Positions 159 through 30,689 of a DNA stretch of 31,334 nt are shown here, piece after piece. The notes beneath the pieces were generated by a model. It had not been told where the DNA came from, made no database searches, and saw nothing but the letters and a program-made list of their open reading frames with translations. Location of the stretch: the IMG/VR virus record IMGVR_UViG_3300017951_002381, positions 1 to 31,334 of that record; one strand, given 5' to 3'. The translations under genes were made by a program, and so were the position numbers. The first letter of the stretch is position 1, and each line of letters starts with the position of its first letter. Source of the stretch: a virus.

Positions 159-1118
159 TTATGCTACCTCATCCCAACCCCATTCGCCCTCCATACCGAC
201 GACGGAGTATTCTGTTACTCGTTTTTCGAAGAAGTTGTCGTGGGAAGCTCCGTTGAGCACCCAGTCCAACCAAGGGAGTGGATTATCTTTCTGCCTAAAC
301 TTAGTACGTAGACCAAGCTGTAAAAGGCGACGATCAGCGATATGGCGAATATAGCGCTTAACTTCCTCTTTAGTGAGTCCTTGTACTTCATTTCCCTTGA
401 ACGCCAAATTAATGAACTTGTCTTCGAGATCTACTGCGTTTCTCGCCATAGTATATATCTTAGATTTAAGTTCATCGTTGACAATACGTGGATGCTCTTC
501 ACAGAATGTACGGAACAACTTTGCGTTACCCTGTACGTGTAGAGTTTCGTCACGGATAGACCACTCGACGATTGTGCCCATACCCTTCATCTTACCGAAG
601 CGTTGGAAGTTCAACAACATCACGAACGAAGAGAACAGTGACATACCCTCGTTGAATACTGACTGTGCAAGAGAAAGTGCAAGACCTGTGTGTGTACTAA
701 CGTCACCTTCTTTCATGAAGTCGACTTTGTCTGCCATCTCTTTGTACTCAAGAAACTTGTGATACTCTTCGTCTGGAAGACCAAGCGTGTCATTAAGAAG
801 GGCATACGCACGTTGGTGGACCGCTTCTCTACCTGCAAAGGAGCTAAGCATATTACGCACTTCGTTATTCCTGAACTTGGGGATGAGTAGTTCATGATAG
901 TTCTCACCCACCTGAACGTCCGATTGAGTAAACAACCGCAACACTTGTGTGATGAATTCCTTTTCGTCTCCGGTGAGTTTTGTTTTCCAGTCTTGGACAT
1001 CTTCGCTCAACTCCGCTTCATCTTCGATCCAGTGGACCTCTTCATGCTTCTTAGACAGTTCAACTGCCCACGGATACTTAAATGGTTTGTACGTGGTACT
1101 AAAGTCTAGTAGTGACAT
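159..1118 (-). CDS. nrdB: ribonucleoside-diphosphate reductase, small (beta) subunit
   Basis: This is the 319-aa R2 subunit of class I ribonucleotide reductase. It houses the diiron-tyrosyl cofactor and passes the radical to NrdA to make dNDPs for phage DNA synthesis. Visible metal ligands include E98 and H101 with the radical Tyr Y105 seven residues after E98 (REAVHQRAY), E157 (FNEG), and E191/H194 (RDETLH); D67 in FTQSD is the likely first ligand. The C-terminal tail (EYSVVGMEGEWGWDEVA) holds the Tyr expected for radical transfer and NrdA binding. Its ATG overlaps the iscU stop as TAATG, so nrdB is translationally coupled to the Fe-S scaffold gene. Length and motifs are intact. Confidence 0.97.
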   Translation of the reverse strand: MSLLDFSTTYKPFKYPWAVELSKKHEEVHWIEDEAELSEDVQDWKTKLTGDEKEFITQVLRLFTQSDVQVGENYHELLIPKFRNNEVRNMLSSFAGREAVHQRAYALLNDTLGLPDEEYHKFLEYKEMADKVDFMKEGDVSTHTGLALSLAQSVFNEGMSLFSSFVMLLNFQRFGKMKGMGTIVEWSIRDETLHVQGNAKLFRTFCEEHPRIVNDELKSKIYTMARNAVDLEDKFINLAFKGNEVQGLTKEEVKRYIRHIADRRLLQLGLRTKFRQKDNPLPWLDWVLNGASHDNFFEKRVTEYSVVGMEGEWGWDEVA

Positions 1119-1498
1119 TAATGCTTTTCCTTGTAGTCTTTTATTGCTGCTTTGATTGCGTCCTCCGCAAGTACGGAGCAGTGAATCTTAACCGGTGGTA
1201 GCGCTAACTCTTGGGCGATCTCCGTGTTTTTAATTTTTCCAGCGTCATCAAGATTCTTACCTTTCACCCATTCGGTAAGTAAACTGGACGATGCGATAGC
1301 ACTTCCGCATCCGTATGTTTTAAACCTCGCGTCTTCGATGATGCGCGTTTCATCGTTGACCTTTATCTGTAACTGCATCACATCACCACAGGCAGGCGCG
1401 CCGACCATACCCGTCCCGACATCTTCATCCTCTTTGTCAAACTTACCCACATTGCGTGGGTTCTCATAGTGATCCATTACTTTATCTGAATAAGCCAT
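1118..1498 (-). CDS. iscU: Fe-S cluster assembly scaffold IscU
   Basis: This 126-aa protein has the family's usual length. IscU assembles [2Fe-2S] and [4Fe-4S] clusters from sulfide delivered by IscS and hands them on through HscA/HscB. All key residues are present: C37 and D39 (GAPACGD), C64 (YGCGS), H106 and C107 (KIHCSVL), and the LPPVK chaperone-recognition motif at 100-104. The N-terminus (AYSDKVMDHYENPRNVG) is typical. I chose the ATG at 1498 because it matches the family start; the longer frame adds 12 unrelated residues. A TATAAATA box lies 48 nt upstream inside the methyltransferase gene. No IscS, IscA or HscA is in the window, so it would have to use host partners. Placement between nrdA and nrdB suggests a link to iron cofactor supply (inference). 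Confidence 0.95.
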   Translation of the reverse strand: MAYSDKVMDHYENPRNVGKFDKEDEDVGTGMVGAPACGDVMQLQIKVNDETRIIEDARFKTYGCGSAIASSSLLTEWVKGKNLDDAGKIKNTEIAQELALPPVKIHCSVLAEDAIKAAIKDYKEKH

Positions 1499-1499
1499 A

Positions 1500-2186
1500 T
1501 TAGTCTTCCGGTGTAAAAATGAAATCACCACCAATGGTGCGGTGGTATTTATATTTTAAGGATTCCATCAACATCATTAAACGATATGCGTTTGTAACGC
1601 AATCTGGATTTTTGATGGACACTTCTACTAAGATCGATGGTCTCCACGTTGTAATGGTTTTCAGACCACCCTGTACAACTTCCAATTCGACACCCTCGAC
1701 ATCTATCTTGATGAGATCAACGTTTTGAAAATTAAAACTGTCCAGTGTCTTAACATCGAAAGTGCGACGATCACTTGGTCTGTGAATGTCACGGTTTTTG
1801 TATTTAGACGTGTGTCCTGTCCACTCCTTTGACATGTAAAAAGTTTCTTTACCTTCATGGTCACTCAAACCACATGGGAAAACCTCGACGTTGGTCATCT
1901 CCCTACTTTCTACATTTAGTTTAAGACATTCGCGTATGTCGTCTGATACCTCAAAACTTTTGACCTCTTCAAACTGTCCACTCAGATGTTCAGTCACAAA
2001 ACCATACGCTGCCCCTACATCAATTGCGGTTCTTTGTGGTCCCTTTCTCCCATCCAAGAATCGTTGCAGTTTCCCGCAATAGTTATTGTCGTATGTCTCT
2101 CGTGCTCCTCTAGCAAACAATAAAAATGATTGCGACTTTTCTGTACTTAAAACGTACCAACCTTTCTTTGTGCGCCTCTTGCCCAT
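1500..2186 (-). CDS. FkbM-family SAM-dependent methyltransferase
   Basis: This 228-aa protein carries the class I methyltransferase motif I (AIDVGAAYGFV, residues 54-64) and the hallmark FkbM segment (LIKIDVEGVELEVVQGG, 158-174). FkbM enzymes O-methylate small molecules or sugars; the substrate cannot be read from the sequence. The basic N-terminus (MGKRRTKKGW) is not a signal peptide, so it acts in the cytoplasm. The ribosome-binding site GAGGG overlaps the nrdA stop, so it is co-transcribed with nrdA. It may modify a surface glycan or a phage component (inference). Confidence 0.88.
   Translation of the reverse strand: MGKRRTKKGWYVLSTEKSQSFLLFARGARETYDNNYCGKLQRFLDGRKGPQRTAIDVGAAYGFVTEHLSGQFEEVKSFEVSDDIRECLKLNVESREMTNVEVFPCGLSDHEGKETFYMSKEWTGHTSKYKNRDIHRPSDRRTFDVKTLDSFNFQNVDLIKIDVEGVELEVVQGGLKTITTWRPSILVEVSIKNPDCVTNAYRLMMLMESLKYKYHRTIGGDFIFTPED
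1546..1553 (-). promoter_or_regulatory. candidate T4-type late promoter box upstream of iscU
   Basis: An exact TATAAATA on the minus strand lies inside the 3' part of the methyltransferase gene. By T4 spacing (box at -13 to -6) transcription would start near 1540, giving a leader of about 42 nt before the iscU ATG. Being inside coding sequence weakens the call, but four other exact copies sit in front of genes in this window. Confidence 0.45.
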
Positions 2187-2189
2187 CTT

Positions 2190-4160
2190 CTATCCCTCAC
2201 AAGCACGACACTCCTCTGACTGTTGTGCATTTGAGGCATCCAACTTCATCATGAGATCGTCGTATCCGCCCACGTATTCACCTTCAATGTAAATTTGTGG
2301 GACGGTGGTTACTCTTCTGCCGGTTACTTCCGCGGCGGTTTTACCGATTTCTTCGAGATCGACCTTATCAAAAGGTATACCTCTCAGTTTTAGTTCCTCC
2401 ATCGCCATGGCACAGAAGGGACAATTCTTTTTAGAATAAACTATAGACCGGTTGTCATCTTGCAAGGCGACACGTTCTACTTTCTCTGACACGTTTTCTG
2501 CACGAGACTTTGCCTCTGTGCGTAGATAGTACAAACCCTTTAGACCCTCTTTCCACGCCTTGATGTGCACTCTGTTCACATATGACTTAGGTGCACCTGC
2601 GGGGAAGAATAGGTTGACAGACTGACCTTGACAGATGTAAGGTTGTCGATCTGCGGCATGTTGTACCACCCAGTTCTGGTCAAGTTCTTGTGCGGTCTTA
2701 AATACCGCCTTCTCACCTTCATTCAAGAATGGTAGGTGTTGCACCGATCCTTTCTGAGTGATGATCGATGTCCAAGTTGATTCGTTGTTCTCACCCTTTT
2801 CTTCGAGTAGTTCTTCAAGGTATCTGTTCTTCACAAGAAAAGAACCCGCACGTGTGCGATGCGTATACGCATTCGCCTTATTTGGTTCTATAGAGGGAGA
2901 GGTTGACAGGATAACTCCGCTGGAGGCATTTGGTGCAATCGCCATAAGATGAGAATTCCGTCGACCTGAACCCACGCCGTCTGGGTATTCCCCACGCTCA
3001 ATAGCGAGGAGTTCGGTTTCGGATACGGCTTCGTCGCGGATGTGACTAAACACAACGTCGTTGATTTCGCTTGCCTTATCAGATTCCCATGCAACGGCGT
3101 GTTTTTGGAGAAGTGAGTGGAAACCCATTGCTCCGAGTCCGAGCGATCTTTCTCTTGTTGCACTATACTTTGCTCTTGAGACGGTGTCGGGAGCGTTGTC
3201 AATAAAATACTGCAATACGTTATCAAGCATCCTAATAAGATCCCGCACAATAGTGGTATCTTTCCATTCATCATAATACTCCAGATTAAGTGAGGACAAA
3301 CAACAAACTGCGGTTCGATCTTCACTCGTAGGTAGGTGGATCTCATTACACAAATTTGACCCGTTGATCCGCAACCCCAAATCTTTCAAGGGTTGTGGTA
3401 AGTGTTCGTTTGCGGTATCGATGAAATTTAGATAGGGTTCACCTGTACGGAAACGAACTTCTAGGATTCGTTCCCACAACTTACGTGCATTGATAGACTC
3501 TTTGACCTCTCCATCTTTAGGGTCACGTAAATCAAAGTCTGTGTTATCGATCACTGCCTGCATAAACTCATCGGTGATATTGAGTGCGTTATGAAGGTTC
3601 AATGCCTTTCGTTGCACATCACCTGTAGGGATACGCATATTCAAGAACTCTACGATATCGGGGTGTGACACGTCCATATACGCAGCATACGACCCCTTAC
3701 GTGTCCTACCTTGACGGTAGGCAATCATGTCTGCGTCTACGGTGTGGAGAAAAGGTATTGGACCAGGCGCGACATCTGATACTGTTCTAACGTCGGACCA
3801 ATGTCCACCAACACCGCCGCCATAAACACTAAGCCAACGCAGTTCAGAAGTATGATCAATGAGTCCTTCAAGAGTGTCCGGAACGTAGGTAAGGAAACAT
3901 GAGATAGGCATACCCTTGCCTTGTCCATGCCCGTTCGGAGCATTCGATAACACTGGCGAAGCAAACATAAACCATTTTTTAGAGACGTAATCATAGAGTC
4001 TCTGCGCGAGGTCATCGTCTCCCGCAGACCACGCGATCGACGCACGTCTAAATCCTTCTTGTGGTGATGATTCATATTCGTTGAGGTAAAAGTCTTTTAA
4101 CATCCCGACTGCATAGTCTTGTAAGAGAGAGTCGCGGGATTGATCTAATTTAACAGGCAT
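2190..4160 (-). CDS. nrdA: ribonucleoside-diphosphate reductase large (alpha) subunit fused to glutaredoxin
   Basis: This 656-aa protein reduces ribonucleotides. The core covers about residues 1-560 and has the active-site cysteines C88 (MPISCF) and C286/C287 (TAVCCLS), the N269-x-C271-x-E273 catalytic triad (NLCNE), and the radical-transfer pair in LYYLRT near 545. There is no N-terminal ATP-cone domain, so dATP allosteric shut-off is probably absent. A complete glutaredoxin follows at about 570-640, with a CPFC active site at 580-583 and a TVPQIYI cis-Pro motif. The usual C-terminal redox pair (CRAC, 651-654) comes after it, so the reductant is inserted between core and tail. A consensus sigma70 promoter lies just upstream. 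The gene precedes the methyltransferase, iscU and nrdB in one apparent operon. Confidence 0.96.
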   Translation of the reverse strand: MPVKLDQSRDSLLQDYAVGMLKDFYLNEYESSPQEGFRRASIAWSAGDDDLAQRLYDYVSKKWFMFASPVLSNAPNGHGQGKGMPISCFLTYVPDTLEGLIDHTSELRWLSVYGGGVGGHWSDVRTVSDVAPGPIPFLHTVDADMIAYRQGRTRKGSYAAYMDVSHPDIVEFLNMRIPTGDVQRKALNLHNALNITDEFMQAVIDNTDFDLRDPKDGEVKESINARKLWERILEVRFRTGEPYLNFIDTANEHLPQPLKDLGLRINGSNLCNEIHLPTSEDRTAVCCLSSLNLEYYDEWKDTTIVRDLIRMLDNVLQYFIDNAPDTVSRAKYSATRERSLGLGAMGFHSLLQKHAVAWESDKASEINDVVFSHIRDEAVSETELLAIERGEYPDGVGSGRRNSHLMAIAPNASSGVILSTSPSIEPNKANAYTHRTRAGSFLVKNRYLEELLEEKGENNESTWTSIITQKGSVQHLPFLNEGEKAVFKTAQELDQNWVVQHAADRQPYICQGQSVNLFFPAGAPKSYVNRVHIKAWKEGLKGLYYLRTEAKSRAENVSEKVERVALQDDNRSIVYSKKNCPFCAMAMEELKLRGIPFDKVDLEEIGKTAAEVTGRRVTTVPQIYIEGEYVGGYDDLMMKLDASNAQQSEECRACEG

Positions 4161-4199
4161 AAAAAAATACTCGATTTACAGAGATTGATAACTTCAGAT

Positions 4200-4228
4200 A
4201 TTATACACTATATCTAGTCTTTTGTCAA
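4200..4228 (-). promoter_or_regulatory. consensus sigma70 promoter of the nrdA operon
   Basis: On the minus strand TTGACA (4228-4223) and TATAAT (4205-4200) are separated by exactly 17 nt, a perfect match to the bacterial housekeeping consensus. The -35 box lies in the last codons and stop of the upstream o-spanin-like gene. It points at nrdA, whose ATG is 40 nt below the -10 box. It should be read by unmodified host RNA polymerase. It lacks the inverted repeat found at the four promoters further upstream. Confidence 0.85.
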
Positions 4229-4669
4229 CTGGTCTTCTACAACCTGTTGGTTCTTTTCCAACCAATCCTCTGCATCGGTATCTTCATCGCCCTGTGTCGC
4301 CTTACGGTAATATAGGATGATTTCCTTCTGTTGACGTATGTAACGTCGGATCTCTTGAAGGTTAAAGGCCATATTCTCATATGCCTGTGGTGTTAGACCG
4401 AACAAAACAAAGGTACCACCCTGCATCTTCTCTAGTCTCACAATCTGTTCTTCCATGTTTTTTTCGGTTATGACAAAGAACTCTACGTCTTCTAGAGAAA
4501 TTTCTTGTGGTAAAGGTGGTTGGTAAATTTCGAGTGTCTCATACTCAGTGACCGTCTTGATAATCGGTTCTGGTGCAGTCACCGGTTGTTGAGGTTTAAG
4601 AAACGGTATACTGGTGCACCCTGAAAGGAACACCAACGCGAGTATAATATTAAAGAGTTTCATCTGCAT
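4214..4669 (-). CDS. outer-membrane lipoprotein, probable o-spanin
   Basis: This is a 151-aa lipoprotein. It has a short hydrophobic signal (KLFNIILALVFLSGC) ending in a lipobox, so it should be lipidated on the Cys near residue 18. A Pro-rich linker (PQQPVTAPEP) follows, then a helical C-terminal half (RRYIRQQKEIILYYRK). It overlaps the end of the TM/coiled-coil gene upstream, the order expected of an i-spanin/o-spanin pair that fuses inner and outer membranes at lysis. I chose the ATG at 4669 because a GAGG site lies 6 nt before it; the ATG at 4663 is the alternative. The spanin role is inferred from architecture and order. Confidence 0.7.
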   Translation of the reverse strand: MQMKLFNIILALVFLSGCTSIPFLKPQQPVTAPEPIIKTVTEYETLEIYQPPLPQEISLEDVEFFVITEKNMEEQIVRLEKMQGGTFVLFGLTPQAYENMAFNLQEIRRYIRQQKEIILYYRKATQGDEDTDAEDWLEKNQQVVEDQLTKD

Positions 4670-5075
4670 CTGCAACCTCGCGTGAGTCTTGTTCAATAGA
4701 ACGGAACACCTTTTCCGTACCATTGTTTATTCTAGGTTCGATCAAGCCGGGTTTTACCCGTGCCAATTTAGTGAGATCGTGTCTCTTGAAAATGGAGACA
4801 TATTCGTCTCGTTCTGCGGCGAGAGTGTTTGCTCTCTCTGTGAGTTCTCCGACCGCTTTGAGTTGATTCTGCAAGTTGTTCTCTGCCTTCTCTCGTGCGC
4901 GAGTCTCTTTCTCCAGCGCACTTTCCATTGTGATGACATTTGTTTTGAGAACAGCGTTATTGGATTCTAACTGTGCGATCTCTGTGTTGAGACCATTGAC
5001 AGTGTATTGATGATATGCATATCCACTACCTGCAAGGATTAGGATCAGTGGTAACATTTTGATGAATGCAAACAT
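4650..5075 (-). CDS. inner-membrane coiled-coil protein, probable i-spanin (Rz-like)
   Basis: This 141-aa protein has an N-terminal membrane anchor (about residues 6-24), a long charged heptad region (about 30-95), and a C-terminal segment containing KHDLTKL-like residues (RHDLTKLARVKPGLIEPRIN). A single N-terminal TM plus a periplasmic coiled coil is the architecture of i-spanins. The neighbouring downstream gene encodes a lipoprotein that overlaps its 3' end, as Rz1 does with Rz. The ATG overlaps the preceding stop (TAATG). No endolysin is visible in the window, so the lysis role rests on architecture alone. Confidence 0.7.
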   Translation of the reverse strand: MFAFIKMLPLILILAGSGYAYHQYTVNGLNTEIAQLESNNAVLKTNVITMESALEKETRAREKAENNLQNQLKAVGELTERANTLAAERDEYVSIFKRHDLTKLARVKPGLIEPRINNGTEKVFRSIEQDSREVADADETL

Positions 5076-5377
5076 TATTTAATTTTCCGTACCTGATAGT
5101 TGAAAGGGTCTTGTGTATTTAGTTCAAACGGTTCTCCAGTAACCAGTTTCCCTTTCAATCTTTTGGGACTAATTATCTCGATGTGGCTGAACTCATAAGA
5201 AGTTTTCTTTTGGGGGTCTAACCAAATAATGACCTCCCATTCATTGACAAAGAATTTTATCCAGAACCAGACAAAGGGTTTAGCAATCCAACGTCCCAGC
5301 GAGGATACAGTTGTTGATAAAATTTGACCAATTTTCTTCAATTTCTTCACGCTCCTTATAGGATCGGTAGAGTGCAT
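5075..5377 (-). CDS. small membrane-associated protein of unknown function
   Basis: A frame of up to 100 aa. It has a basic N-terminus, an aromatic hydrophobic segment (GRWIAKPFVWFWIKFFVNEW, about residues 28-47) that could lie in or along a membrane, and a beta-rich hydrophilic C-terminus ending NYQVRKIK. The start is uncertain. The ATG at 5377 has no ribosome-binding site and overlaps the upstream lipoprotein gene by 98 nt. A strong AAGGAG lies 10 nt before a TTG at 5341 and immediately before a GTG at 5350, so the protein may begin there with about 88-91 aa. It sits between a lipoprotein and the spanin-like pair, so a part in lysis or envelope function is possible. Confidence 0.6.
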   Translation of the reverse strand: MHSTDPIRSVKKLKKIGQILSTTVSSLGRWIAKPFVWFWIKFFVNEWEVIIWLDPQKKTSYEFSHIEIISPKRLKGKLVTGEPFELNTQDPFNYQVRKIK

Positions 5378-5570
5378 CTTTCATACTATCTGGTGATTGA
5401 TGATACTCTTTCCATTCCTCTGGTGTCATAAATTTTTTCGCGGGATATGATACTCCCAATTCCAACGAGTAATACAACTGCCCCGTTACTAAATCTTCAT
5501 GTGACTCAAGATTCGGCGATACTGCAACACAACCGGACAGTAACAACAAGACCGGTAGTAAACGAATCAT
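5280..5570 (-). CDS. lipoprotein of unknown function
   Basis: This 96-aa protein starts with a signal sequence and lipobox (MIRLLPVLLLLSGC), giving a lipidated Cys at residue 14. The mature part is hydrophilic, with an acidic helical stretch (YRSYKEREEIEENW) and a second Cys at the C-terminus (LDC). The ATG overlaps the upstream stop as ATGA. It is the first of four consecutive envelope-associated genes that include the spanin-like pair, so a lysis or envelope role is plausible. No family is recognised. Confidence 0.75.
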   Translation of the reverse strand: MIRLLPVLLLLSGCVAVSPNLESHEDLVTGQLYYSLELGVSYPAKKFMTPEEWKEYHQSPDSMKDALYRSYKEREEIEENWSNFINNCILAGTLDC

Positions 5571-5734
5571 GGTACTAACTTTTTTCTCTTACCTAAAATT
5601 TCAACATAATGACGTGTCAAGATCTTTGGTCGACGTTTCTTTTTCGTCGGACCCATGTTCTTGGTGTCTGCGGGAATACCTGCGTCCGCTGCGGTCATCA
5701 TCTCTTCATCAAACATCTGTTTGAACGTCTTCAT
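5567..5734 (-). CDS. small basic protein with a capsid-targeting-like N-terminus
   Basis: This 55-aa ORF is coupled to its neighbours by ATGA overlaps at both ends, good evidence that it is translated. It begins MKTFKQMFDEE, close to the MK[TK]FK...E start shared by three proteins in the virion-protein block and to the T4 internal-protein capsid-targeting sequence (MKTYQEFIAE). The remainder is strongly basic (PTKKKRRPKILTRH). A small packaged DNA-binding internal protein is a reasonable guess; no family is recognised. Confidence 0.7.
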   Translation of the reverse strand: MKTFKQMFDEEMMTAADAGIPADTKNMGPTKKKRRPKILTRHYVEILGKRKKLVP

Positions 5735-6318
5735 CGGTAAATCTCTCCAAGTGTGACATACAAGGGTTGTCCTGTATTTATGTGTTCGACCACGTACATC
5801 TTGAACCCAAGGAAAACTTCTACTGGGTAACAGTCCTCTTTGACTCTGATCGTATCATTCTTGCTTGCAATGTCTTGACATTGAATTATGTCGAGTTTGT
5901 CTTCTCGCAATCGATACACGCCAGGCGCGAGTTGTTCTTCATCTAAAAGATACCATGCGGTTTGTTCTTTGATGAGATCCTTCTGGTCGACTCCGGACTG
6001 TCTCAGTATCTTGTCTACAGATACCGGCGACAGATCGTATTTCTCTTTCAAAAGAAAAAGTGCGGCAGCATAAGATGCAAGACGACTCTTCCCGCCCGGC
6101 AACTTCTCTAGCATTCGTTTTACGTTGAACACCAGTCTCATAAAAGTACTGTACGCATCCTTCTCTTCGCTTGATTCTATTTTCTTGCTTCTGACTCGTT
6201 TCCCGTCTTTGTCAATGATCCCTAGTTTAAATGCATCGGTTTCATCGAAGGGAGTTGTCAACATCTTCACAAATCTGAAAGTGTAAAAAAGATCGCCTGC
6301 GCGGCTTGCTAATGACAT
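5731..6318 (-). CDS. hypothetical T4-like marine phage protein
   Basis: This 195-aa soluble protein starts MSLASRAGDLFYTFRFVKML. It has a helical middle with FKLGIIDKDGK and KLPGGKSRLASYAAALFLLKEK, and a beta-rich C-terminus. From memory, similar proteins occur next to the 123-aa protein upstream in many T4-like marine phages, without a firm function; I could not check this by search. The start TAATG overlaps the upstream stop. A structural or assembly role is possible but not shown. Confidence 0.8.
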   Translation of the reverse strand: MSLASRAGDLFYTFRFVKMLTTPFDETDAFKLGIIDKDGKRVRSKKIESSEEKDAYSTFMRLVFNVKRMLEKLPGGKSRLASYAAALFLLKEKYDLSPVSVDKILRQSGVDQKDLIKEQTAWYLLDEEQLAPGVYRLREDKLDIIQCQDIASKNDTIRVKEDCYPVEVFLGFKMYVVEHINTGQPLYVTLGEIYR

Positions 6319-6689
6319 TAAATTTTCCTCAGCTCTGCTACTATGTCGTTATCCATTGGTATACTAGCATATTTAGTATTTTCGATAAGTTGAAGATAGA
6401 TCAAAAAGGGTTTAATTATCTGCCAATCTTCCGAATCGGGTATTTTGAACTCCAGCATTTTTAGACCCGGCTCGATCCCAAAACAGTTGAAGATAACAAC
6501 AAGGTGATTGAGTAGTAAATTGACCGGTGGGTTACCATTATCGCGATATCGGGTAATGAGTCTCTTTATGTACTTAAACCGTCTCAGATCCTCGTAGAAT
6601 TCGTCTGCGTCGACGCAACGAGGGTTATAGTAGTTACGGATAGCAAAGAGTTCGAAATTGCTTTCACGGAGTTCATCAAACAACTGCAT
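6318..6689 (-). CDS. hypothetical T4-like marine phage protein
   Basis: This 123-aa protein starts MQLFDELRESNFELFAIRNY and contains YNPRCVDADEFYEDLRRFKYIKRL in its first half. The second half has a hydrophobic core (LLLNHLVVIFNCFG) without a clear TM. From memory it resembles a widespread small protein of T4-like marine phages, usually paired with the 195-aa protein that follows. The ATG at 6689 has only a weak GGA upstream; a partial late-type box (CTAAATAC) lies about 30 nt before it. Function unknown. Confidence 0.8.
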   Translation of the reverse strand: MQLFDELRESNFELFAIRNYYNPRCVDADEFYEDLRRFKYIKRLITRYRDNGNPPVNLLLNHLVVIFNCFGIEPGLKMLEFKIPDSEDWQIIKPFLIYLQLIENTKYASIPMDNDIVAELRKI

Positions 6690-13188: not shown

Positions 13189-13529
13189 TAGTTATCTACT
13201 TTCGCCCCCGCTCTCCACTGCCAACAAGACCAATACCGTGCCTTCCACTTGGGGCCGGGGTTGTCGCAGTTATGTCTTGCGCGAAATGACTTGCGTCTTG
13301 CTGGGTCATCTCGCTTGATTTCCATATCTGGTGAACCGAAAGATACCTTTACCACATTACCTTTCTCGTTCTTGGTATACACATAGAACTTTTTAGTACC
13401 ACCACGCACGGGATCATTCAGAGTAACTTTCTTACCCTGATACTCCGCTTCGGTGATCTCCAGATCTTCGTACAGTGACTCGCACTTACAATCGATTTCG
13501 TCTGCCCGATGATCTTTAAACTTCTTCAT
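13188..13529 (-). CDS. small virion-type protein with capsid-targeting-like N-terminus
   Basis: This 113-aa protein begins MKKFKDHRADE, sharing the MK[KT]FK...E start with its neighbours. The C-terminal half carries the striking segment KRDDPARRKSFRARHNCDNP followed by a Trp/Cys-rich end (KARYWSCWQWR). From memory this end recurs in structural proteins of marine T4-like phages. CKC at 14-16 plus later Cys could bind metal. The start lies 14 nt inside the preceding gene, with GAACGA before it. I expect it in the virion. Confidence 0.75.
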   Translation of the reverse strand: MKKFKDHRADEIDCKCESLYEDLEITEAEYQGKKVTLNDPVRGGTKKFYVYTKNEKGNVVKVSFGSPDMEIKRDDPARRKSFRARHNCDNPGPKWKARYWSCWQWRAGAKVDN

Positions 13530-13761
13530 TTTCGTTCCCTTTCGACTTCAGATAGTCGGTTGCGCTATCAAGGTAGTCGTTTGCTTTTGTAATTTTGTTT
13601 TGAACCCATTCTGGAAGATTGTCATCGTCACCCAACATCTTCATCAAGTCTTGTGCATTCCGCACAATGGTCTTGAGTTGAGTCTTCGCCATTTCCCCTT
13701 CTTGATCATATTCGTTAGGGTCTTTGTCTTCTCTCAGTCTTAGGTTTTTAAACGTTTTCAT
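13516..13761 (-). CDS. small helical virion-type protein with capsid-targeting-like N-terminus
   Basis: This 81-aa protein starts MKTFKNLRLRE, a good match to the T4 capsid-targeting sequence, with an L-x-E end as used by the T4 prohead protease. The rest is helical: EMAKTQLKTIVRNAQDLMKM, then DDNLPEWVQNKITKANDYLD. From memory this second part is common in marine T4-like phage virion proteins. A TATAAATA box ends 5 nt before the ATG and there is no ribosome-binding site, so the mRNA may be leaderless. Confidence 0.8.
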   Translation of the reverse strand: MKTFKNLRLREDKDPNEYDQEGEMAKTQLKTIVRNAQDLMKMLGDDDNLPEWVQNKITKANDYLDSATDYLKSKGNENEEV

Positions 13762-13766
13762 GGTTC

Positions 13767-13774
13767 TATTTATA
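13767..13774 (-). promoter_or_regulatory. T4-type late promoter placed directly at a start codon
   Basis: An exact TATAAATA on the minus strand in the 21-bp gap before the gene at 13761. With the T4 geometry (-13 to -6) the first transcribed base would be 13761, the A of the ATG. This predicts a leaderless late mRNA. Confidence 0.7.
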
Positions 13775-13782
13775 CCTTTGGA

Positions 13783-14544
13783 TTATTGAATGTACATATT
13801 CAATTCATACGACTTACCCGTGTTGTAGACCTGAACGTGCAGATTACGACGCGGGTTATTTGTTTTGAGAATGTAACTATTCGTCTTACCCGTAGATGGT
13901 TTACGAGGACCAGAAGCAACCTTGTCATCGATCTCTGAGTCTTTGACAATCAAACCCTTTTTCTTGGCAAAATCATACGCATGTTTCATTGCCATAGAGA
14001 AATCTTTGTGGTATAGGTCATACCCACTGGCAGACTTACTTGCGTCTCTCTTCTCAGTGACTCTCTTCGCGGTTGCGGTTGCGATCGCCATCTTTTTGTC
14101 CATAGGCATATCAGGGTTATCACGTTGGATTGCTTTTGCGATCTTCTCTCTTTTCTTTAACTCATTTGGAGTAAGAGTTTTTTCTCGCATGATGCGACCG
14201 CGCACCATCTTGAACCCACCTTTCTTGAGTATAATCGCAACTCTGTCACGTGGATCAGTGTCCATTGTTCGGACGTGATGCATCAACTCTTTGTTCGCCT
14301 TGTCCTGTACATTGACGTTAGAGTTTCTACCGATTTTACGCACCAACGTCGCAGTCTTTTCGAAGTCGTCTTTGTCAATACCACCATGCTTCTTGGCGTA
14401 GGTATCCAATTCTTTTGCAGTCTTCTCATAGTCGACTGCCTCGTTCTTGGGTTTCTCTCCACGTTCTTTTTTAGAGATTGCAATCGCTGCCTGTTGTGCG
14501 GCAGAGACTGCTTCTTTCTGACGAACCTCTTTAAATTTTTTCAT
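13783..14544 (-). CDS. modular internal virion-type protein
   Basis: This 253-aa very basic protein begins MKKFKEVRQKEAVSAAQQAA, the shared N-terminal signal. A module with KNEAVDYEKTAKELDTYAKK follows, then a basic helical part (NELKKREKIAKAIQRDNPDM) and a C-terminal beta-rich module (SYILKTNNPRRNLHVQVYN). I chose the ATG at 14544 since AAGGG lies 8 nt before it and the motif aligns with neighbours; the longer frame adds 30 residues that overlap the previous gene. A packaged, DNA-associated internal protein is likely but unproved. Confidence 0.78.
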   Translation of the reverse strand: MKKFKEVRQKEAVSAAQQAAIAISKKERGEKPKNEAVDYEKTAKELDTYAKKHGGIDKDDFEKTATLVRKIGRNSNVNVQDKANKELMHHVRTMDTDPRDRVAIILKKGGFKMVRGRIMREKTLTPNELKKREKIAKAIQRDNPDMPMDKKMAIATATAKRVTEKRDASKSASGYDLYHKDFSMAMKHAYDFAKKKGLIVKDSEIDDKVASGPRKPSTGKTNSYILKTNNPRRNLHVQVYNTGKSYELNMYIQ

Positions 14545-20435: not shown

Positions 20436-20981
20436 TTACATTCGTTCGTATAACAGGTCGTACAACTTGTCGATCTGACCGTGATCACGATGATTACACA
20501 TCTTGTACCAAACACGTCGTGCCTCTAGTGCATCCAACATGAGTAGTGTCTCTTCGCGCCACTCTTTCCAGAAGTCCGGATCGTGCTCGCGGATACTTTT
20601 CGCGTTGTGTGTGATGTCAAGAATCTTGATAAACTTCACCACGTCTGGTGCAAGAGCAAGTCGTGCACGATCGAGCGCCTTACGCTTGAGTCGATTACCA
20701 ACAAACTCTTCTGGCTTGGTCAAGTACCAAACATACTCTGCGACCTTGTCACCAAAGTGTCGTCGTATCTGATCCATGTCGACCTCTGTGTCTTCTACAG
20801 TGTCGTGCAGAATCGCGGCGTAGAGTGCATCGCGTTCCATCTTCTCAGACCAAGACTGGTACATGAGACCAACCGCCAACACGTGCTGGACGTAGGGTTC
20901 ACCTGTATACTTGCGGACCTGACCTTCGTGGGCGACCCGCGCAAACATCTTTACATAATCTAGACTAACCATAGTTTCCAT
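20436..20981 (-). CDS. HD-domain (p)ppGpp hydrolase-like protein (Mesh1/SpoT type)
   Basis: This 181-aa stand-alone HD domain belongs to the RelA/SpoT hydrolase family, which removes pyrophosphate from (p)ppGpp. Motifs: H18 (AHEGQ..KYTGEPYVQHV with H33), H59-D60 and E63-D64 (LHDTVEDT), and D122 with H125-N126 (KILDITHN). No synthetase or regulatory domain is present, so it would be a small alarmone hydrolase. I prefer the ATG at 20981 because GGTGAG lies 4 nt before it; the ATG at 20972 is possible and the longest frame runs deep into the previous gene. It is the last gene before the terminator. Confidence 0.85.
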   Translation of the reverse strand: METMVSLDYVKMFARVAHEGQVRKYTGEPYVQHVLAVGLMYQSWSEKMERDALYAAILHDTVEDTEVDMDQIRRHFGDKVAEYVWYLTKPEEFVGNRLKRKALDRARLALAPDVVKFIKILDITHNAKSIREHDPDFWKEWREETLLMLDALEARRVWYKMCNHRDHGQIDKLYDLLYERM

Positions 20982-21402
20982 AAAACTCACCACTTGACAC
21001 ACCATCGTAGATACTTGTTCTCTTCTCGATGACGCGTCCATTCATATATCCTTTTATCGGACGACCCGCTTGGGTGATAACCATAGTCACCCCACGAGAA
21101 CCAATATTATAACCGATCTCACGATCGAACGCAACTATTACTGACTGAAAATCTTGGTAATTTTTCACTTCCAGAGGACATCCATCACGTTGAACGTGCA
21201 GTTCAAAGTCGCGCAGGCGAGACTCCTGTTCCTTGAGTTCATAGAACTCCTTTGCATACTCCGAACACTTCTCCAGAGTCACACGTTTCACACGTCGTTC
21301 ACCGGACTCATCAAGAATGTACCGCCGGATTTCCGGCGGGATCTCATTGTAAGAACGAAAGAACCTAGTAGGTTCGGGAATGACAGTTTCCACTATACTC
21401 AT
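20965..21402 (-). CDS. hypothetical protein in the DUF932/HD operon
   Basis: This 145-aa soluble protein has a helical middle (KCSEYAKEFYELKEQESRLR) and a C-terminal beta part (GVTMVITQAGRPIKGYMNGR). No family is recognised. The ATGA overlap with the DUF932-like gene and the GAGG site make it a firm gene. It belongs to the unit driven by the promoter at 22407-22379. Function unknown. Confidence 0.75.
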   Translation of the reverse strand: MSIVETVIPEPTRFFRSYNEIPPEIRRYILDESGERRVKRVTLEKCSEYAKEFYELKEQESRLRDFELHVQRDGCPLEVKNYQDFQSVIVAFDREIGYNIGSRGVTMVITQAGRPIKGYMNGRVIEKRTSIYDGVSSGEFYGNYG

Positions 21403-22450: not shown

Positions 22451-22750
22451 TCACCATTCGCGCAGAATGGTTACAAGCAACATGAACCCCGAAATCGCGT
22501 TCAACATGATCAATGCACGGTCGCGCCAGATTACCGACACCCACAACCACATCATGATTCCGACAAACCCGAATCCTAAATCATACATTCGGTAGTCGAT
22601 ACCCGCAGATCGCATGGCGAGAGAGATCAGTATCAGAACCGATGCTGCCCACTTTAGATACCAATCGAAGTCATCGGGATACCAGTTCCGATCTGGTTTG
22701 ATCCGACCTTGTGCACGGACCATTGGATCACCTTTACGAGAAGGAGTCAT
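22451..22750 (-). CDS. small membrane protein
   Basis: A 99-aa protein with a basic soluble N-terminus (TPSRKGDPMVRAQGRIKPDR) and about three hydrophobic segments (WAASVLILISLAM; GFGFVGIMMWLWVSVIW; IMLNAISGFMLLVTIL). I chose the ATG at 22750 because GAGGGGG ends 9 nt before it; the ATGs at 22759 and 22756 would be too close to that site. Function unknown. It overlaps the 33-aa ORF upstream. Confidence 0.7.
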   Translation of the reverse strand: MTPSRKGDPMVRAQGRIKPDRNWYPDDFDWYLKWAASVLILISLAMRSAGIDYRMYDLGFGFVGIMMWLWVSVIWRDRALIMLNAISGFMLLVTILREW

Positions 22751-22835
22751 TGTCATCATCCCCCTCAATTACCCACCAGACTACCAAGAGTATACCGGCG
22801 ACAATACTTAACGAAACTGTTACTGGATCAATCAT
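22734..22835 (-). CDS. 33-aa single-pass membrane mini-protein
   Basis: An ORF coupled to the previous gene by ATGA. The product has one TM (VSLSIVAGILLVVWWVI) and an acidic tail (EGDDDNDS). Its 3' end overlaps the next gene in another frame and contains that gene's ribosome-binding site. The clear membrane helix and coupling support it, but it is short. Confidence 0.5.
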   Translation of the reverse strand: MIDPVTVSLSIVAGILLVVWWVIEGDDDNDSFS

Positions 22836-23107
22836 GTTATAATCCCACTCGCGGCGCGAATATACTCCTTCTCAACCGCGTCTGCTGTCTTAACGCACAA
22901 TACCACACCCGACTTGTTAAACGTCACCTCACCGACCTGTGGTGTCCCTGTCATCGCAACCGTGGGCATGAAACCCAAACTCTGACCATCCGGTGTCACG
23001 ATGTGTGGATCACCGATGACAATCGTCGTGTCTGTTTCTAAACGGAACTTACCAACGTACTCCGCACCTGTCACGGCAACCACCGTGATCACATCATTAA
23101 TTTGCAT
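22832..23107 (-). CDS. small hypothetical beta-rich protein
   Basis: A 91-aa protein with a beta-rich pattern (DVITVVAVTGAEYVGKFR; TTIVIGDPHIVTPDGQS) that looks like a small Sm-like or OB-type barrel, although no signature proves it. The ATG at 23107 is chosen because GAGG lies 9 nt before it; the ATG at 23122 has no site. It overlaps the end of the dehydrogenase gene by 11 nt. Function unknown. Confidence 0.7.
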   Translation of the reverse strand: MQINDVITVVAVTGAEYVGKFRLETDTTIVIGDPHIVTPDGQSLGFMPTVAMTGTPQVGEVTFNKSGVVLCVKTADAVEKEYIRAASGIIT

Positions 23108-23864
23108 TTCTATAAACCTCATTAGTTGACTGTACTGAATGTAAAAGACGCAGTTCTATATCGTCACACAAATTCAAAAGTGCGGACACGTCTTTTGGAA
23201 AACAATGACCACCATACCCGAACTTGCCGTCTGGGCCTGGCACCTGAGTATGACTGAACCCGATACGTTTATCTAGACAAACTGATTCAATCATACCATC
23301 AAAATCTTGGAATCCTAACTGGTTGTAGAGTCGATACATCTCGTTCATGAACGTAACCTTCGTTGCAAGGAAAGTATTGATCACATACTTACCGAATGCA
23401 GCTTGTTCGAGAGATACGAATCGCACGTCCTTCAGTTTATCGAGACACGGCGCGAATAGTTCATGCCACCATCGCGCAGAACCACCACCATAGATTGCAT
23501 ACGTGCTGTCGAGAAACTCTTGTGTTGGATCATTACCGGTTGTCCCTCGAAGAAACTCAGGTGCAAACGTGGTGTCTGCCGGACAATTGTTTTTCAACCA
23601 CAAAGGATCAATCGTCGACTTCACAAGGTACTTCATTTGAGGACCGTACTTGGTGAAAACATCTTCCACGTTTTCAGTCACACACTTCCCATCTTCACCC
23701 ATCGGGGTTGCAACCGCAACGATAACCGCGTCAATAAAACAATCGTGTTCGTTGTTTTTCCCAAGCGCAGGATCATCAATCAGAACACAGAGATCATCTC
23801 TTTTTTTGAGAGCGGCATGTGCCGCTTTTCCCACTGGACCATAACCAGCAATAACAATATTCAT
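23097..23864 (-). CDS. short nucleotide-sugar dehydrogenase (UDP-glucose/GDP-mannose 6-dehydrogenase family)
   Basis: This 255-aa protein has an N-terminal Rossmann fold (IVIAGYGPVGKAA, residues 3-15), the APEFLRG motif, the central helix motif KYVINTFLATKVTFMNE and the catalytic Cys motif GGHCFPKD near 225-235. The family oxidises a nucleotide sugar to its uronate using two NAD+. Usual members have about 400-450 residues; this one stops soon after the catalytic Cys motif and lacks the C-terminal sugar-nucleotide domain. The ATG at 23864 is coupled by ATGA to the protease gene. It may act on a host or capsule sugar, or be a minimal enzyme. Confidence 0.88.
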   Translation of the reverse strand: MNIVIAGYGPVGKAAHAALKKRDDLCVLIDDPALGKNNEHDCFIDAVIVAVATPMGEDGKCVTENVEDVFTKYGPQMKYLVKSTIDPLWLKNNCPADTTFAPEFLRGTTGNDPTQEFLDSTYAIYGGGSARWWHELFAPCLDKLKDVRFVSLEQAAFGKYVINTFLATKVTFMNEMYRLYNQLGFQDFDGMIESVCLDKRIGFSHTQVPGPDGKFGYGGHCFPKDVSALLNLCDDIELRLLHSVQSTNEVYRNAN

Positions 23865-24514
23865 CGTCGCATCTTCTCCATTCTTTTTTTGGACGCGATC
23901 CACTGATCAAACGTCATCGGTTTACGAGCATCACCATACGGCAGTTTACGCTCTTTGAATTCAGCTTTCAATGCTTTCGCCGCTTTGGTTCCCATGAACC
24001 TCGATGTCAACTTGGCGACTGCTTGTCGGAACGATCGACCGTGGTGTGGATGACCAGCGCAGTGCGCCAGTTCATGCAGTACCGTGTACTCGTTCATTCC
24101 AGTCTTTGTATCTAGCACGATACGATTCAACTCTACGTAGGCTAGTCCCGCGTTACCCGCACCATTCCTTTTCTTCGCGGAGATGGTTACCTTGGTACCT
24201 CGAAGGATAGCACCCACGTCATAATTTTGCCGCGACTCGTAAGCATCTAACCACAAATTAGTATAGGTCTTGGACTTAGTCACTTTGTTGACGTACTTCT
24301 GAACCTCTTCGATCGACTCGAACACTTTACCGTAACCGTTCGTCTCGTGAAACGCCCACTCCGCTTTGTAAGTCTTGAGTCGTTCGGAGTCTTTACCCCG
24401 AGCACCCTTGTTCTGTTTCTTGCAGTGTTCTCGCAAGTAGTCGTTGTACTGATCCTCGATCGAACCATAGAAAGGTCGCTCGAACGCATACTCTTTGTAA
24501 ATACCTGTGTGCAT
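23861..24514 (-). CDS. metzincin-motif zinc metalloprotease-like protein
   Basis: This 217-aa protein has the zinc site HELAHCAGHPHHG at 147-159, matching HExxHxxGxxH, with H147, H151 and H157 as ligands and E148 as the base. Upstream is a charged helical region; a beta part (AGLAYVELNRIVLD) leads into the zinc helix, as in zincin folds. No signal peptide is present, so it acts in the cytoplasm or virion. TAATG couples it to the gene before. The target is unknown; host-protein cleavage or head maturation are options. Confidence 0.8.
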   Translation of the reverse strand: MHTGIYKEYAFERPFYGSIEDQYNDYLREHCKKQNKGARGKDSERLKTYKAEWAFHETNGYGKVFESIEEVQKYVNKVTKSKTYTNLWLDAYESRQNYDVGAILRGTKVTISAKKRNGAGNAGLAYVELNRIVLDTKTGMNEYTVLHELAHCAGHPHHGRSFRQAVAKLTSRFMGTKAAKALKAEFKERKLPYGDARKPMTFDQWIASKKRMEKMRR

Positions 24515-27134: not shown

Positions 27135-27291
27135 GACGCACCCCCAACTTTGCTTCGAGATTCGCGATCTCTTTTTCCTTTCTCTTCAACCAAGACTCTT
27201 CAGTCCGGTCACCCTTCTCAAAGAACACTGAGTTCTTGAGACGCTCCAGTGCACCCTCACGGCGCATCTTCTTCACGTTTTCACCTCTCAT
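27127..27291 (-). CDS. 54-aa basic helical protein
   Basis: A 54-codon ORF filling the gap between the cytochrome and the 64-aa gene, coupled by ATGA to the cytochrome stop. The product is very charged (MRGENVKKMRREGALERLKN; WLKRKEKEIANLEAKLG) and coiled-coil-like. The exact fit between neighbours supports translation; function unknown. Confidence 0.6.
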   Translation of the reverse strand: MRGENVKKMRREGALERLKNSVFFEKGDRTEESWLKRKEKEIANLEAKLGVRRG

Positions 27292-27677
27292 CGACTAGGG
27301 AACCCCTCTTGTACGAAAACTCCAATTAATCCAATCTGACCATCGGTCAGTGCTTTTGCTTGTGGATACATCATCGCGGATTGTGGTCCGATCGGATGAC
27401 CCATTTTGTAGTGCATCAACTTGTCAATAATCATATCAGCACTTTGACCTACCAGTGTTGGTCCAATACCACCTTGACCTTGTGGACCATGACATGCAGC
27501 ACACTGCACCCACGCACCACGAATCATCTGGAATCGATCCTCGACCTGTGCAACCTGAAACCCTTCAGGAAAGACAGACCACTCTTGCAAGTGAATAGGA
27601 CCGTCCAACATGTGAGACTGTGCACTCACTGGTTGAGATAATAACACAGCCATTGCTGCAATCAATACTTTCTTCAT
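27288..27677 (-). CDS. periplasmic class I cytochrome c
   Basis: This 129-aa protein has a Sec signal peptide (residues 1-20, KKVLIAAMAVLLSQPVSAQ) and a single c-type haem site CAACH at 59-63. Met102 or Met103 in SAMMYPQAKALTDGQIGLIG is the expected sixth haem ligand. Small soluble cytochromes of this type carry electrons between periplasmic or membrane redox enzymes. Haem attachment would need the host's Ccm system, as no maturation gene is here. ATGA couples it to the upstream gene. It lies in the same apparent operon as isocitrate lyase. The donor and acceptor are unknown. Confidence 0.92.
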   Translation of the reverse strand: MKKVLIAAMAVLLSQPVSAQSHMLDGPIHLQEWSVFPEGFQVAQVEDRFQMIRGAWVQCAACHGPQGQGGIGPTLVGQSADMIIDKLMHYKMGHPIGPQSAMMYPQAKALTDGQIGLIGVFVQEGFPSR

Positions 27678-28481: not shown

Positions 28482-28862
28482 TTAATCGATTTTAGCGATG
28501 ATTGATTTTATAATTTCGGGACGAAAATGTTCGTAGTGTTGATATTTTGATAGGTCTTCGTGTTCATTGAACCAACCAAAACACGTAAACTGTCGACACT
28601 GGTTTGGACGATTCTCATAATTGGTGCAAACCTTGTCTTCCCAATGTGCACATCCTATCCATGTTCGACCATCAAATTCTATTTTCTTTATTGGCACCCA
28701 CGACTTAGGATCAGAACCATACTCCTCTTCCGGTGTACAAACGTAGATACCGTTTTGGATTTGGTCTCTTTGATCCAGTGTGTCTTCCCATTCTTCAAAT
28801 AGACAACATCGACCACACGAAACACACACGTCCGATGTGATCAATGATTCGTCTAAGTTCAT
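28482..28862 (-). CDS. YkgJ-family-like Cys-cluster metal-binding protein
   Basis: This 126-aa protein has the motif CVSCGRCC at 13-20 and later NRPNQCRQFTC plus other Cys, matching the CxxCxxCC ... C-x-x-[YF]xxRPxxCrxf pattern of the zinc- or iron-chelating YkgJ/PF03692 family. Members are thought to bind a metal or Fe-S cluster; the reaction is unknown. I chose the ATG at 28862 with GGAG 8 nt before it; the upstream TTG has no site. It follows isocitrate lyase by 30 nt. Given the iron-linked genes nearby, an iron role is possible (inference). Confidence 0.8.
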   Translation of the reverse strand: MNLDESLITSDVCVSCGRCCLFEEWEDTLDQRDQIQNGIYVCTPEEEYGSDPKSWVPIKKIEFDGRTWIGCAHWEDKVCTNYENRPNQCRQFTCFGWFNEHEDLSKYQHYEHFRPEIIKSIIAKID

Positions 28863-28892
28863 CCCTCGTTCTCCAAGTCCCAAATACAAATG

Positions 28893-30107
28893 TTAGAATT
28901 GGTCCTCTTCCGTTGACCCTGCAAACGCCGCTGTCGAACCGCTTCCAAGCGCCGTTGTAATCGCGTCGAAATAGGACACTCCGACTTCTTTTTGGTGTTT
29001 GGTACTGGTGTACCCATATTGTTCTGCATGGAATTCTGCCTCTTGCAAATCCGCGTATGCCAACATGCCGTCACTTTTGTATTGACGGGCGAAGTTAAAC
29101 ACCGACAGATTCGTTGAATGAAATCCCCCTAATGTAATGAACTGGAACACAAATCCCATCTTGGCCAGTTCCCCTTGAAACTCACGTAACTCTTTGTTAC
29201 TTGGAATCGACTTCCTCCAGTTGAACGATGGTGAACAGTTATACGCTAACATCGCATCTGGAACCGCACCCTTCACTGCGTCTGCGAAACGCTTCGCTTC
29301 TTTCAGACATGGTTTGGATGTCTCACACCAAACAAGATCCGCGTACTCTGCGTATACTTGACCACGTTCACATCCATAGTCGAGACCCACCCCGTCTTTG
29401 ATCTTGAAGAATCCTTCGGGTGTTCTCTCTCCGGTGATAAACTTTCTGTCCAGTTCGTCTATATCAGATGAAAGTAACTTAGCAGACTCAGCATCAGTTC
29501 GAGCGATGACCACAGTATCAGTACCGGCAACATCACTAGCAAGACGGGCAGCATTAAGGTTACGCACAGCATTAGATACAGGTATAAGAACTTTTCCTCC
29601 CAAGTGACCGCATTTCTTTTCAGATGCGAGTTGATCCTCGAAATGGACTGCCGCAGCTCCTGCATCGATAAGGTTTTTCGCAAGTTCGTAGGCATTTAAA
29701 ACTCCTCCGAATCCTGCTTCAGCGTCGGCGATGATGGGAGCGTACCTAAACCCCCTTCCAGACTCCAAATAGGAGATTTGGTCTTGACGTTTAAATGCAT
29801 TATTGATAGAGCGCACAACGTCAGGAACGCTATTGACAGCATAAAGGGACTGATCCGGATAAACGTCTTGAGTAGAGTTTGCCGCCGCGGCGACTTGCCA
29901 CCCCGAACAGTAGATTGCTTTGAGTCCCGCTTTAACGTGTTGGACTGCTTGTTGACCATTGTAAGCTCCAAAGGTATTGATATAAAGGTAATCACGAAAC
30001 ATGGCGCGTAGATTGTGCGCTTGGTCCCGTGCGAATTGATTTGTATAATGCCGCGACCCGCGAAGTTTTTCAACTACCTGCGGATCATAATCTCGTTTCT
30101 TTTTCAT
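28893..30107 (-). CDS. aceA: isocitrate lyase
   Basis: This 404-aa enzyme cleaves isocitrate to glyoxylate and succinate, the first step of the glyoxylate shunt. It aligns from memory with E. coli AceA along its full length: YCSGWQVAA (66-74), ADAEAGFGG (128-136), the catalytic loop KKCGHLGGK with Cys166 (164-172), NCSPSFNW, FQFITLGGFH and the terminal GSTEEDQF. It lacks only about 25 N-terminal residues of the E. coli protein. The ATG at 30107 has GGAGG 5 nt before it. No malate synthase is in the window, so glyoxylate would be used by host enzymes. It is intact and likely active. Confidence 0.96.
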   Translation of the reverse strand: MKKKRDYDPQVVEKLRGSRHYTNQFARDQAHNLRAMFRDYLYINTFGAYNGQQAVQHVKAGLKAIYCSGWQVAAAANSTQDVYPDQSLYAVNSVPDVVRSINNAFKRQDQISYLESGRGFRYAPIIADAEAGFGGVLNAYELAKNLIDAGAAAVHFEDQLASEKKCGHLGGKVLIPVSNAVRNLNAARLASDVAGTDTVVIARTDAESAKLLSSDIDELDRKFITGERTPEGFFKIKDGVGLDYGCERGQVYAEYADLVWCETSKPCLKEAKRFADAVKGAVPDAMLAYNCSPSFNWRKSIPSNKELREFQGELAKMGFVFQFITLGGFHSTNLSVFNFARQYKSDGMLAYADLQEAEFHAEQYGYTSTKHQKEVGVSYFDAITTALGSGSTAAFAGSTEEDQF

Positions 30108-30125
30108 AATCACCTCCCGATGATT

Positions 30126-30689
30126 TTAGTCCCATGACAAAGAGATGCGGCTCTTGCCACTCTCATCGAAACTATCTATACGAACGCCGCACTCTTCAAT
30201 TATAGACATAATCTCTTTGAAGTTTGCAACACCCGTTTTACTTCCGTCGAAACAGAAGTATGAGGAATTTTGTTGTTCAGGTGACTGACAGACGAAACCA
30301 CTGACCGATGTGTCGTACTGAGATGCATCAAAACCTTCTTCGATCTCACCCATACCACCACACTCCGGACAATCAATCCACTGTTCGGATTCTTCGTCGT
30401 CCGCATCATAGTCGGGGTTTTCGATCTCACACTCACCGTGACACTCGTAACACTCTTCACCTTCGAGATAGACCTCACAGTCTTGTGAATGATTGAAAAG
30501 AACCTTCGAGTAGTCGACATCGACCTCTTTGTCTTCATCTAGGTAGTCCGGTAGACAGGACCACGCACAACTCTGACAACATGGTTCGTTCCAACCAACG
30601 TACCAACCCTCTTCTTTTAAACGTTCTTGCATTTTTCGAAATGCGTTGGGACGCGGGGTAGTGCGTCCATCCTCTTTAATTGCTGTCAT
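30126..30689 (-). CDS. DnaJ-type zinc-knuckle acidic protein
   Basis: A 187-aa acidic protein. It has CCQSCAWSC near 38-46, and two CxxCxG-like knuckles (CYECHGEC near 80 and CPECGGMG near 107), the pattern of DnaJ Cys-rich zinc domains, but without a J domain. The C-terminal part (NFKEIMSIIEECGVRIDSFD) is a separate small fold. GAGG lies 7 nt before the ATG and ATGA couples it to the 73-aa gene. It may be a nucleic-acid or protein-binding zinc protein; no function is recognised. Confidence 0.75.
   Translation of the reverse strand: MTAIKEDGRTTPRPNAFRKMQERLKEEGWYVGWNEPCCQSCAWSCLPDYLDEDKEVDVDYSKVLFNHSQDCEVYLEGEECYECHGECEIENPDYDADDEESEQWIDCPECGGMGEIEEGFDASQYDTSVSGFVCQSPEQQNSSYFCFDGSKTGVANFKEIMSIIEECGVRIDSFDESGKSRISLSWD

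Follow-up and report, generated by a model that had tools for sequence, protein, structure and literature searches.

Isocitrate lyase (ICL) genes have been reported from viruses before. Three sources describe an aceBA operon in the T4-like environmental virus TARA_ERS478052_N000008 (PMC5332604), aceAB or phage aceA in ocean viromes (PMC4053976), and ICL in viruses found below the Ross Ice Shelf (PMC10721903). Phage-borne aceA is already in print, and ICL on a phage is not new by itself. The window analyzed here is the whole stretch of 31,334 bases, a fragment taken from an IMG/VR virus record. What our loci have in common with TARA_ERS478052_N000008 is ICL on a marine virus with T4-like structural genes (PMC5332604), and with the aceAB genes of the ocean viromes it is ICL on a marine virus (PMC4053976). 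They differ from the aceBA and aceAB loci in that malate synthase was absent from all 41 ICL-bearing viral records and that the partners of ICL are alternative oxidase (AOX), cytochrome c and sometimes SdhB.

The original prediction placed the enzyme in the glyoxylate shunt and proposed a search for malate synthase in the rest of the genome. None was found among the window ORFs scanned for families, the window being a fragment that lies outside the 41-record set. A tblastn search of the DNA around the viral ICL loci gave no malate synthase either, and an IMG/VR scan with one malate synthase query, the reach of which is close relatives, found none. A phage-borne malate synthase was rejected on these results together with the 41 records, and the idea of a complete glyoxylate shunt on the phage was not upheld.

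Cyanophages, which carry photosynthetic electron-transport genes, offer another comparison. Their plastoquinol terminal oxidase (PTOX, phrog_4235) is, like the AOX of the window, a quinol oxidase of the AOX/PTOX superfamily found on T4-like phages, and a common role as an electron safety valve is likely for both. Of what is known so far, PTOX comes closest to the pairing of ICL and AOX on a phage. The match of the window AOX to phrog_4235 is weak (E 2.2e-4), its assignment rests on PF01786 (Table 1; 223 bits, cut-off 22.7), and no cyanophage record matched it at E 1e-5. No paper joining phage ICL with AOX was found in the open-licence literature, and the combination looks new.

Isocitrate lyase on a T4-like phage

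The ICL frame of the window runs on the minus strand from an ATG at 30107 to a stop codon that ends at 28893, and no ICL frame exists on the plus strand of this interval, where stops occur throughout. An in-frame GTG is located two codons upstream, at 30113. Since this GTG falls within the ribosome-binding-like run GGGAGGTGATT directly before the ATG, 30107 is the better start. The protein matches the Pfam ICL family PF00463 (E 3.6e-88), passes the NCBIfam equivalog NF011645 (601.5 bits, cut-off 562), and has bacterial ICLs as its closest solved structures, aligned over residues 5-404. The set of catalytic motifs, the C-terminus and the equivalog cut-off are shared with bacterial AceA (PF00463/NF011645; 6lrp, 7cmx, 1igw), while the phage form lacks about 20-30 N-terminal residues that are present in many cellular ICLs.

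Twenty active-site positions were assigned from known ICL structures and were then read from the alignment. No change at any of the 20 occurs in the 78 viral ICLs, the window included, or in the 79 cellular ICLs; they are also kept in the six sequences from the small-genome bacteria discussed below, one of which has unread letters at two sites. Four short viral ICLs (L047, L072, L076 and L078) had been removed before this count and before the trees were built. The KKCGH catalytic loop and the metal- and substrate-binding residues are retained in the window and in every viral row. Comparison of the eight nearest viral copies gave dN/dS values of 0.045-0.162 across all 28 pairs. The gene is neither a chance frame nor a decayed gene, and its product is very probably a functional enzyme. 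The full-length ICL with intact catalytic motifs that had been predicted for a phage was therefore borne out by the 404 residues, the family cut-offs, the 20 positions and the ORFs that the window shares with phage C48C1.

Weaker matches of the protein to the PrpB and PEP_mutase models raised the question of whether it is a methylisocitrate lyase (PrpB) or some other enzyme from the PEP mutase superfamily. This identity is highly improbable, as the score against the PrpB model is 102 bits with a cut-off of 354, i.e., about 250 bits below it, whereas the ICL equivalog cut-off is exceeded, and the loop reads KKCGH in all 78 viral ICLs instead of the K-R form that marks PrpB. Methylisocitrate lyase was rejected on the equivalog scores and the loop.

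Table 1. Features of the 31,334-base window.
Feature	Position	Strand	Evidence or remarks
Ribonucleotide reductase beta	159-1118	minus	Family match; together with alpha, phrog_84 and 80-87% to C48C1
IscU/NifU_N iron-sulfur scaffold	1118..1534	minus	PF01592 E 2e-56; 83% to C48C1
Ribonucleotide reductase alpha + C-terminal glutaredoxin, one frame	2190-4160	minus	Family match; together with beta, phrog_84 and 80-87% to C48C1
Alternative oxidase (AOX), 193 aa	18397..18978	minus	PF01786 E 3.5e-66; phage AOX clade
DUF6552 membrane protein	22451..22768	minus	PF20189 E 1.2e-15; in relatives, frequently close to ICL or AOX
Small cytochrome c, CAACH haem motif, signal-peptide-like leader	27288..27677	minus	Weak PF00034, 23.0 bits vs 21.3
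CxxCxxCC metal-chelating-like protein following ICL after a 3-base gap	28482..28889	minus	PF03692 E 8.7e-5
Isocitrate lyase (ICL, AceA type), 404 aa, complete	28893..30107	minus	Pfam, NCBIfam, solved-structure alignment, active-site residues
Conserved 187-aa protein just upstream of ICL	30126..30689	minus	Likewise upstream of ICL in L003-L009

Twenty-one of the 50 window ORFs match phage C48C1, and both subunits of ribonucleotide reductase are close to those of this phage (Table 1). C48C1 is a complete T4-like genome of 156 kb with terminase, portal, major head protein and tail genes; it is filed under Kyanoviridae, and the record does not give its host. No capsid or terminase gene was seen among the window ORFs scanned for families, and megablast of window positions 7000-31334 against phage records returned no match. 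The window represents a piece of a T4-like phage genome. It also encodes an FkbM methyltransferase (1500-2186), an HD-domain phosphohydrolase (20436-21041) and a UDP-glucose dehydrogenase-like protein (23097-23903).

Nine ICL matches were obtained among 50,697 named phage records. The ICL of C48C1 is 72.5% identical to that of the window, and C48C1 is the sole phage with a phage-type ICL in this collection, in line with the expectation that the gene is uncommon in isolated phage genomes. Four host-like records match at 52.8-55.6%: two carry the label of Salmonella genomes, the third that of a Salmonella phage (4.5 kb) and the fourth that of an Escherichia phage (1.8 kb). Four Acinetobacter phage records match at 29-31%. 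The records labelled as Salmonella phage (OR850939.1, 52.8%) and Escherichia phage (OR845679.1, 55.6%) are short, carry no annotation and are probably host DNA.

Matches such as these last two indicate that cellular ICL contaminates phage collections, and the original prediction had foreseen that the contig might prove to be a host chromosome. Host chromosome or contamination is extremely improbable for the window. It is contradicted by the phage genes shared with C48C1, a genome complete with structural genes; in addition, the ICL relative L074 carries T4 gp45, gp44 and RegA, and the viral ICLs form a clade of their own against the ordinary cellular ones. As a host-type metabolic gene that is located on a genuine phage and is under selection, the ICL gene is a phage auxiliary metabolic gene.

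Phylogeny and exchange with small-genome bacteria

A scan of 2.9 million IMG/VR contigs identified ICL relatives on 122 of them; 80 were taken for comparison and showed 61-90% identity, and the remaining 42 were left out. The viral ICLs formed one clade apart from ordinary cellular ICLs in a tree of 119 rows in which every second cellular row was used, and this clade had 100/100 support in a tree of 88 rows from which viral rows more than 95% alike had first been removed. Phage ICL and cellular AceA also differ at the residue just after GWQVAA, which is A or S in 78/78 viral and 6/6 small-genome rows and D in 79/79 ordinary cellular ICLs.

The first genome scan gave a single match of cellular origin close to the phage ICLs, L093, from the metagenome-assembled genome (MAG) Nau_16, with an ICL at 77%. 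The contig has the layout of phage contig L031 (tRNA-Arg, tRNA-Gly, ICL, AOX, membrane protein), and in the trees its ICL is placed together with the L031 ICL. Because of this layout and grouping, which point to a phage contig, it was dismissed as an ICL donor and treated as a mis-binned phage, which it probably is. Taken as a whole (C37, L195, 6 kb), the Nau_16 contig consists of this phage-like part followed by coxB, coxA and ctaG, and may instead be an insertion or a chimera. The viral contig L211 (IMGVR_UViG_3300048036_000455) encodes a partial 5-aminolevulinate synthase, AOX, a ClpP-like protease, CoxB, CoxA, CtaG and SdhB at 642-6472 and 13233-13952, and its CoxA is 90% identical to that of the Nau_16 contig. 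L307 matches L211 over 7.1 kb at 99.9%, a stretch that includes SdhB and leaves the cox part outside. The Nau_16 contig and L211 are the only two contigs behind a possible carriage of cox genes by phages, and 44 of the 45 large records have no COX1.

A group of small-genome bacteria was not returned by the first genome-contig scan, since its short patterns probably did not fit, and was recovered by a later genome search. In a set of 147 relatives of Nau_16 that counts Nau_16 itself, an ICL 67-73% identical to that of the window was found in seven genomes, which are 1.1-1.5 Mb in size; the other matches listed are at most 59%, save the phage-like Nau_16 contig (78%) and one partial stretch at 63%. 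A class-wide search of 369 genomes gave 93 matches at a strict threshold, all of which, except the query G128, are at most 60% identical to the G128 ICL.

In four of the small genomes (G128, G137, G150 and G168) an intact run of REG, AceB and ICL occupies a common chromosomal setting, and in G164 the run is present with a broken ICL. In the same setting, G106 has an ordinary ICL after AceB; in G154, the ICL-family protein is 526 aa long and AceB is missing from the site. The slot after REG and AceB, compared in L188, L189, L192, L193 and L194 versus L285 and L287, can therefore hold a phage-type, an ordinary or a 526-aa ICL. The neighbors of G106 and G150 are about equally distant from those of G128 (AceB 69.3% and 69.5%, REG 63% and 61%, respectively), while their ICLs are 53% and 87% identical to the G128 ICL. 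In a tree of the neighbor genes, G106, with its ordinary ICL, groups with the phage-type G150 and G164. The ICL type thus departs from the species tree, which implies that ICL has moved within or into the small-genome family; swaps inside the family, in either direction, are possible.

Within the viral clade, the six small-genome ICLs are the sister group of L071 and L073 (100/99), and close kin to this group is L074, the contig with the T4-like genes named above. A topology in which all viral ICLs and that of the Nau_16 contig form one clade without the small-genome cells was rejected (p-AU 0.0185), and an alternative with L071 and L073 grouped with the cells was not (p 0.125); the constraint groups of these tests were named after inspection of the tree. 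These sequence comparisons support gene exchange between phages and small-genome bacteria, with transfer from phage to cell favored but not proven. The comparison with bacterial AceA that had been suggested to find the donor yielded a distinct viral clade.

Respiratory genes in the window and in related viruses

Besides an intact ICL of a distinct phage clade, the phage encodes AOX, cytochrome c and IscU (Table 1), none of which the original prediction included. AOX is located about 10 kb from ICL. Its translation includes ENERKH and DEEKH, which correspond to the di-iron ExxH ligand pattern of AOX. Phage AOX sequences formed one clade against three cellular rows (44-48% to the window AOX) in a tree from which rows more than 93% alike or shorter than 165 aa had been removed, and which, with three cellular rows, holds little information on origin. 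The cytochrome c gene belongs to a co-directional run with ICL and recurs near ICL in relatives. The protein encoded just upstream of ICL has no Pfam or PHROGs family match. C48C1 also provided the only AOX match among the named phage records. In its annotation, the ICL as well as the AOX appears as a hypothetical protein; the combination may therefore escape notice in current annotation.

Two IMG/VR scans identified 5 and 68 AOX loci. AOX was found in 14 of the 41 ICL-bearing viral records of at least 20 kb. Conversely, 13 of the 73 AOX-seeded loci, a group with many short fragments, also have ICL; of a further 20 AOX records of at least 20 kb, 3 have it and 17 do not. Irregular AOX matches were seen in G001 (C1:14576-14698, a second, partial match in a frame with one TAA) and G005 (C1:11447-12019, a match that spans one TGA), possibly as a result of decay, duplication or frame error.

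Of the 55 loci with at least 3 kb of sequence downstream of ICL, 12 have the start of a 111-aa membrane protein in that 3-kb stretch; cytochrome c starts there in 7 loci and AOX in 8. In L015, ICL, membrane protein, a small ORF, cytochrome c and AOX form a tight run with overlapping ends near a UvsX-like gene (named by eye). SdhB was found in 34 viral contigs, some of them possibly cellular; AOX occurs in 4 and ICL in 1 of these SdhB-seeded loci, and none of the 80 ICL-seeded loci has SdhB. L309 combines, in 3.2 kb, the end of ICL with cytochrome c, membrane protein, SdhB and AOX, and SdhB adjoins AOX in L329 and L330.

Two readings of this distribution were weighed. In one, ICL is a stand-alone auxiliary metabolic gene that supplies glyoxylate for glycine and purines or feeds the host glyoxylate shunt, and its co-occurrence with AOX reflects a lineage that gathers respiratory genes. 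AOX was not seen in 27 of the 41 ICL-bearing records; most of these are fragments, but the near-full-length records G017, G025, G031 and G040 (147-164 kb) are without it as well. No AOX starts within 3 kb downstream of ICL in 47 of the 55 loci, and ribonucleotide reductase is encoded in the ICL window, as this reading would have it. Against it stand the close runs of ICL, membrane protein, cytochrome c and AOX that recur in L014, L015, L032, L033 and others, and the joint occurrence of ICL and AOX in C48C1. We regard it as unlikely, although ICL may also act alone, because many ICL phages show no AOX. The other reading, in which the production of succinate by ICL is coupled to quinol oxidation by AOX, is as a whole moderately probable and the explanation we prefer; the coupling itself, the less certain step, is about as likely as not.

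Proposed rerouting of host respiration

ICL yields succinate and glyoxylate, succinate dehydrogenase hands electrons to quinone, and AOX oxidizes quinol using oxygen and pumps no protons. The linked genes stand at the two ends of this succinate-quinol path, IscU serves iron-sulfur supply, and one contig adds SdhB, the iron-sulfur subunit of the enzyme in the middle of the path. We therefore infer that the phage moves carbon and discards electrons. During infection, phage ICL would cleave isocitrate ahead of the two CO2-releasing steps, and the succinate would be oxidized by host succinate dehydrogenase, filling the quinone pool. Phage SdhB, in some relatives, could supplement that enzyme, and phage IscU could aid it. 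Phage AOX would drain the quinol pool to oxygen without proton pumping, so that carbon could keep flowing while the host chain is a bottleneck or is being taken apart. Host malate synthase could use the glyoxylate, or it could be turned into glycine for making nucleotides.

A broader proposal is put forward tentatively, and we consider it somewhat doubtful. T4-like phages of heterotrophs would carry a movable respiratory module (ICL, membrane protein, cytochrome c, AOX, at times SdhB and perhaps an aa3-type cytochrome oxidase) that turns the infected cell away from the oxidative Krebs cycle and towards a succinate-driven respiration without proton pumping, as a counterpart of the photosynthesis genes of cyanophages, and phage ICL would have displaced the native gene in the aceBA operon of a bacterial family. 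If this is true, phages of heterotrophs unite a carbon branch point with a terminal electron sink, the respiratory equivalent of the cyanophage strategy, and the way in which a phage sustains central metabolism during host shutdown becomes testable. The chromosomal phage-type ICL would then be a gene of viral lineage in a core-metabolism slot of a bacterial chromosome.
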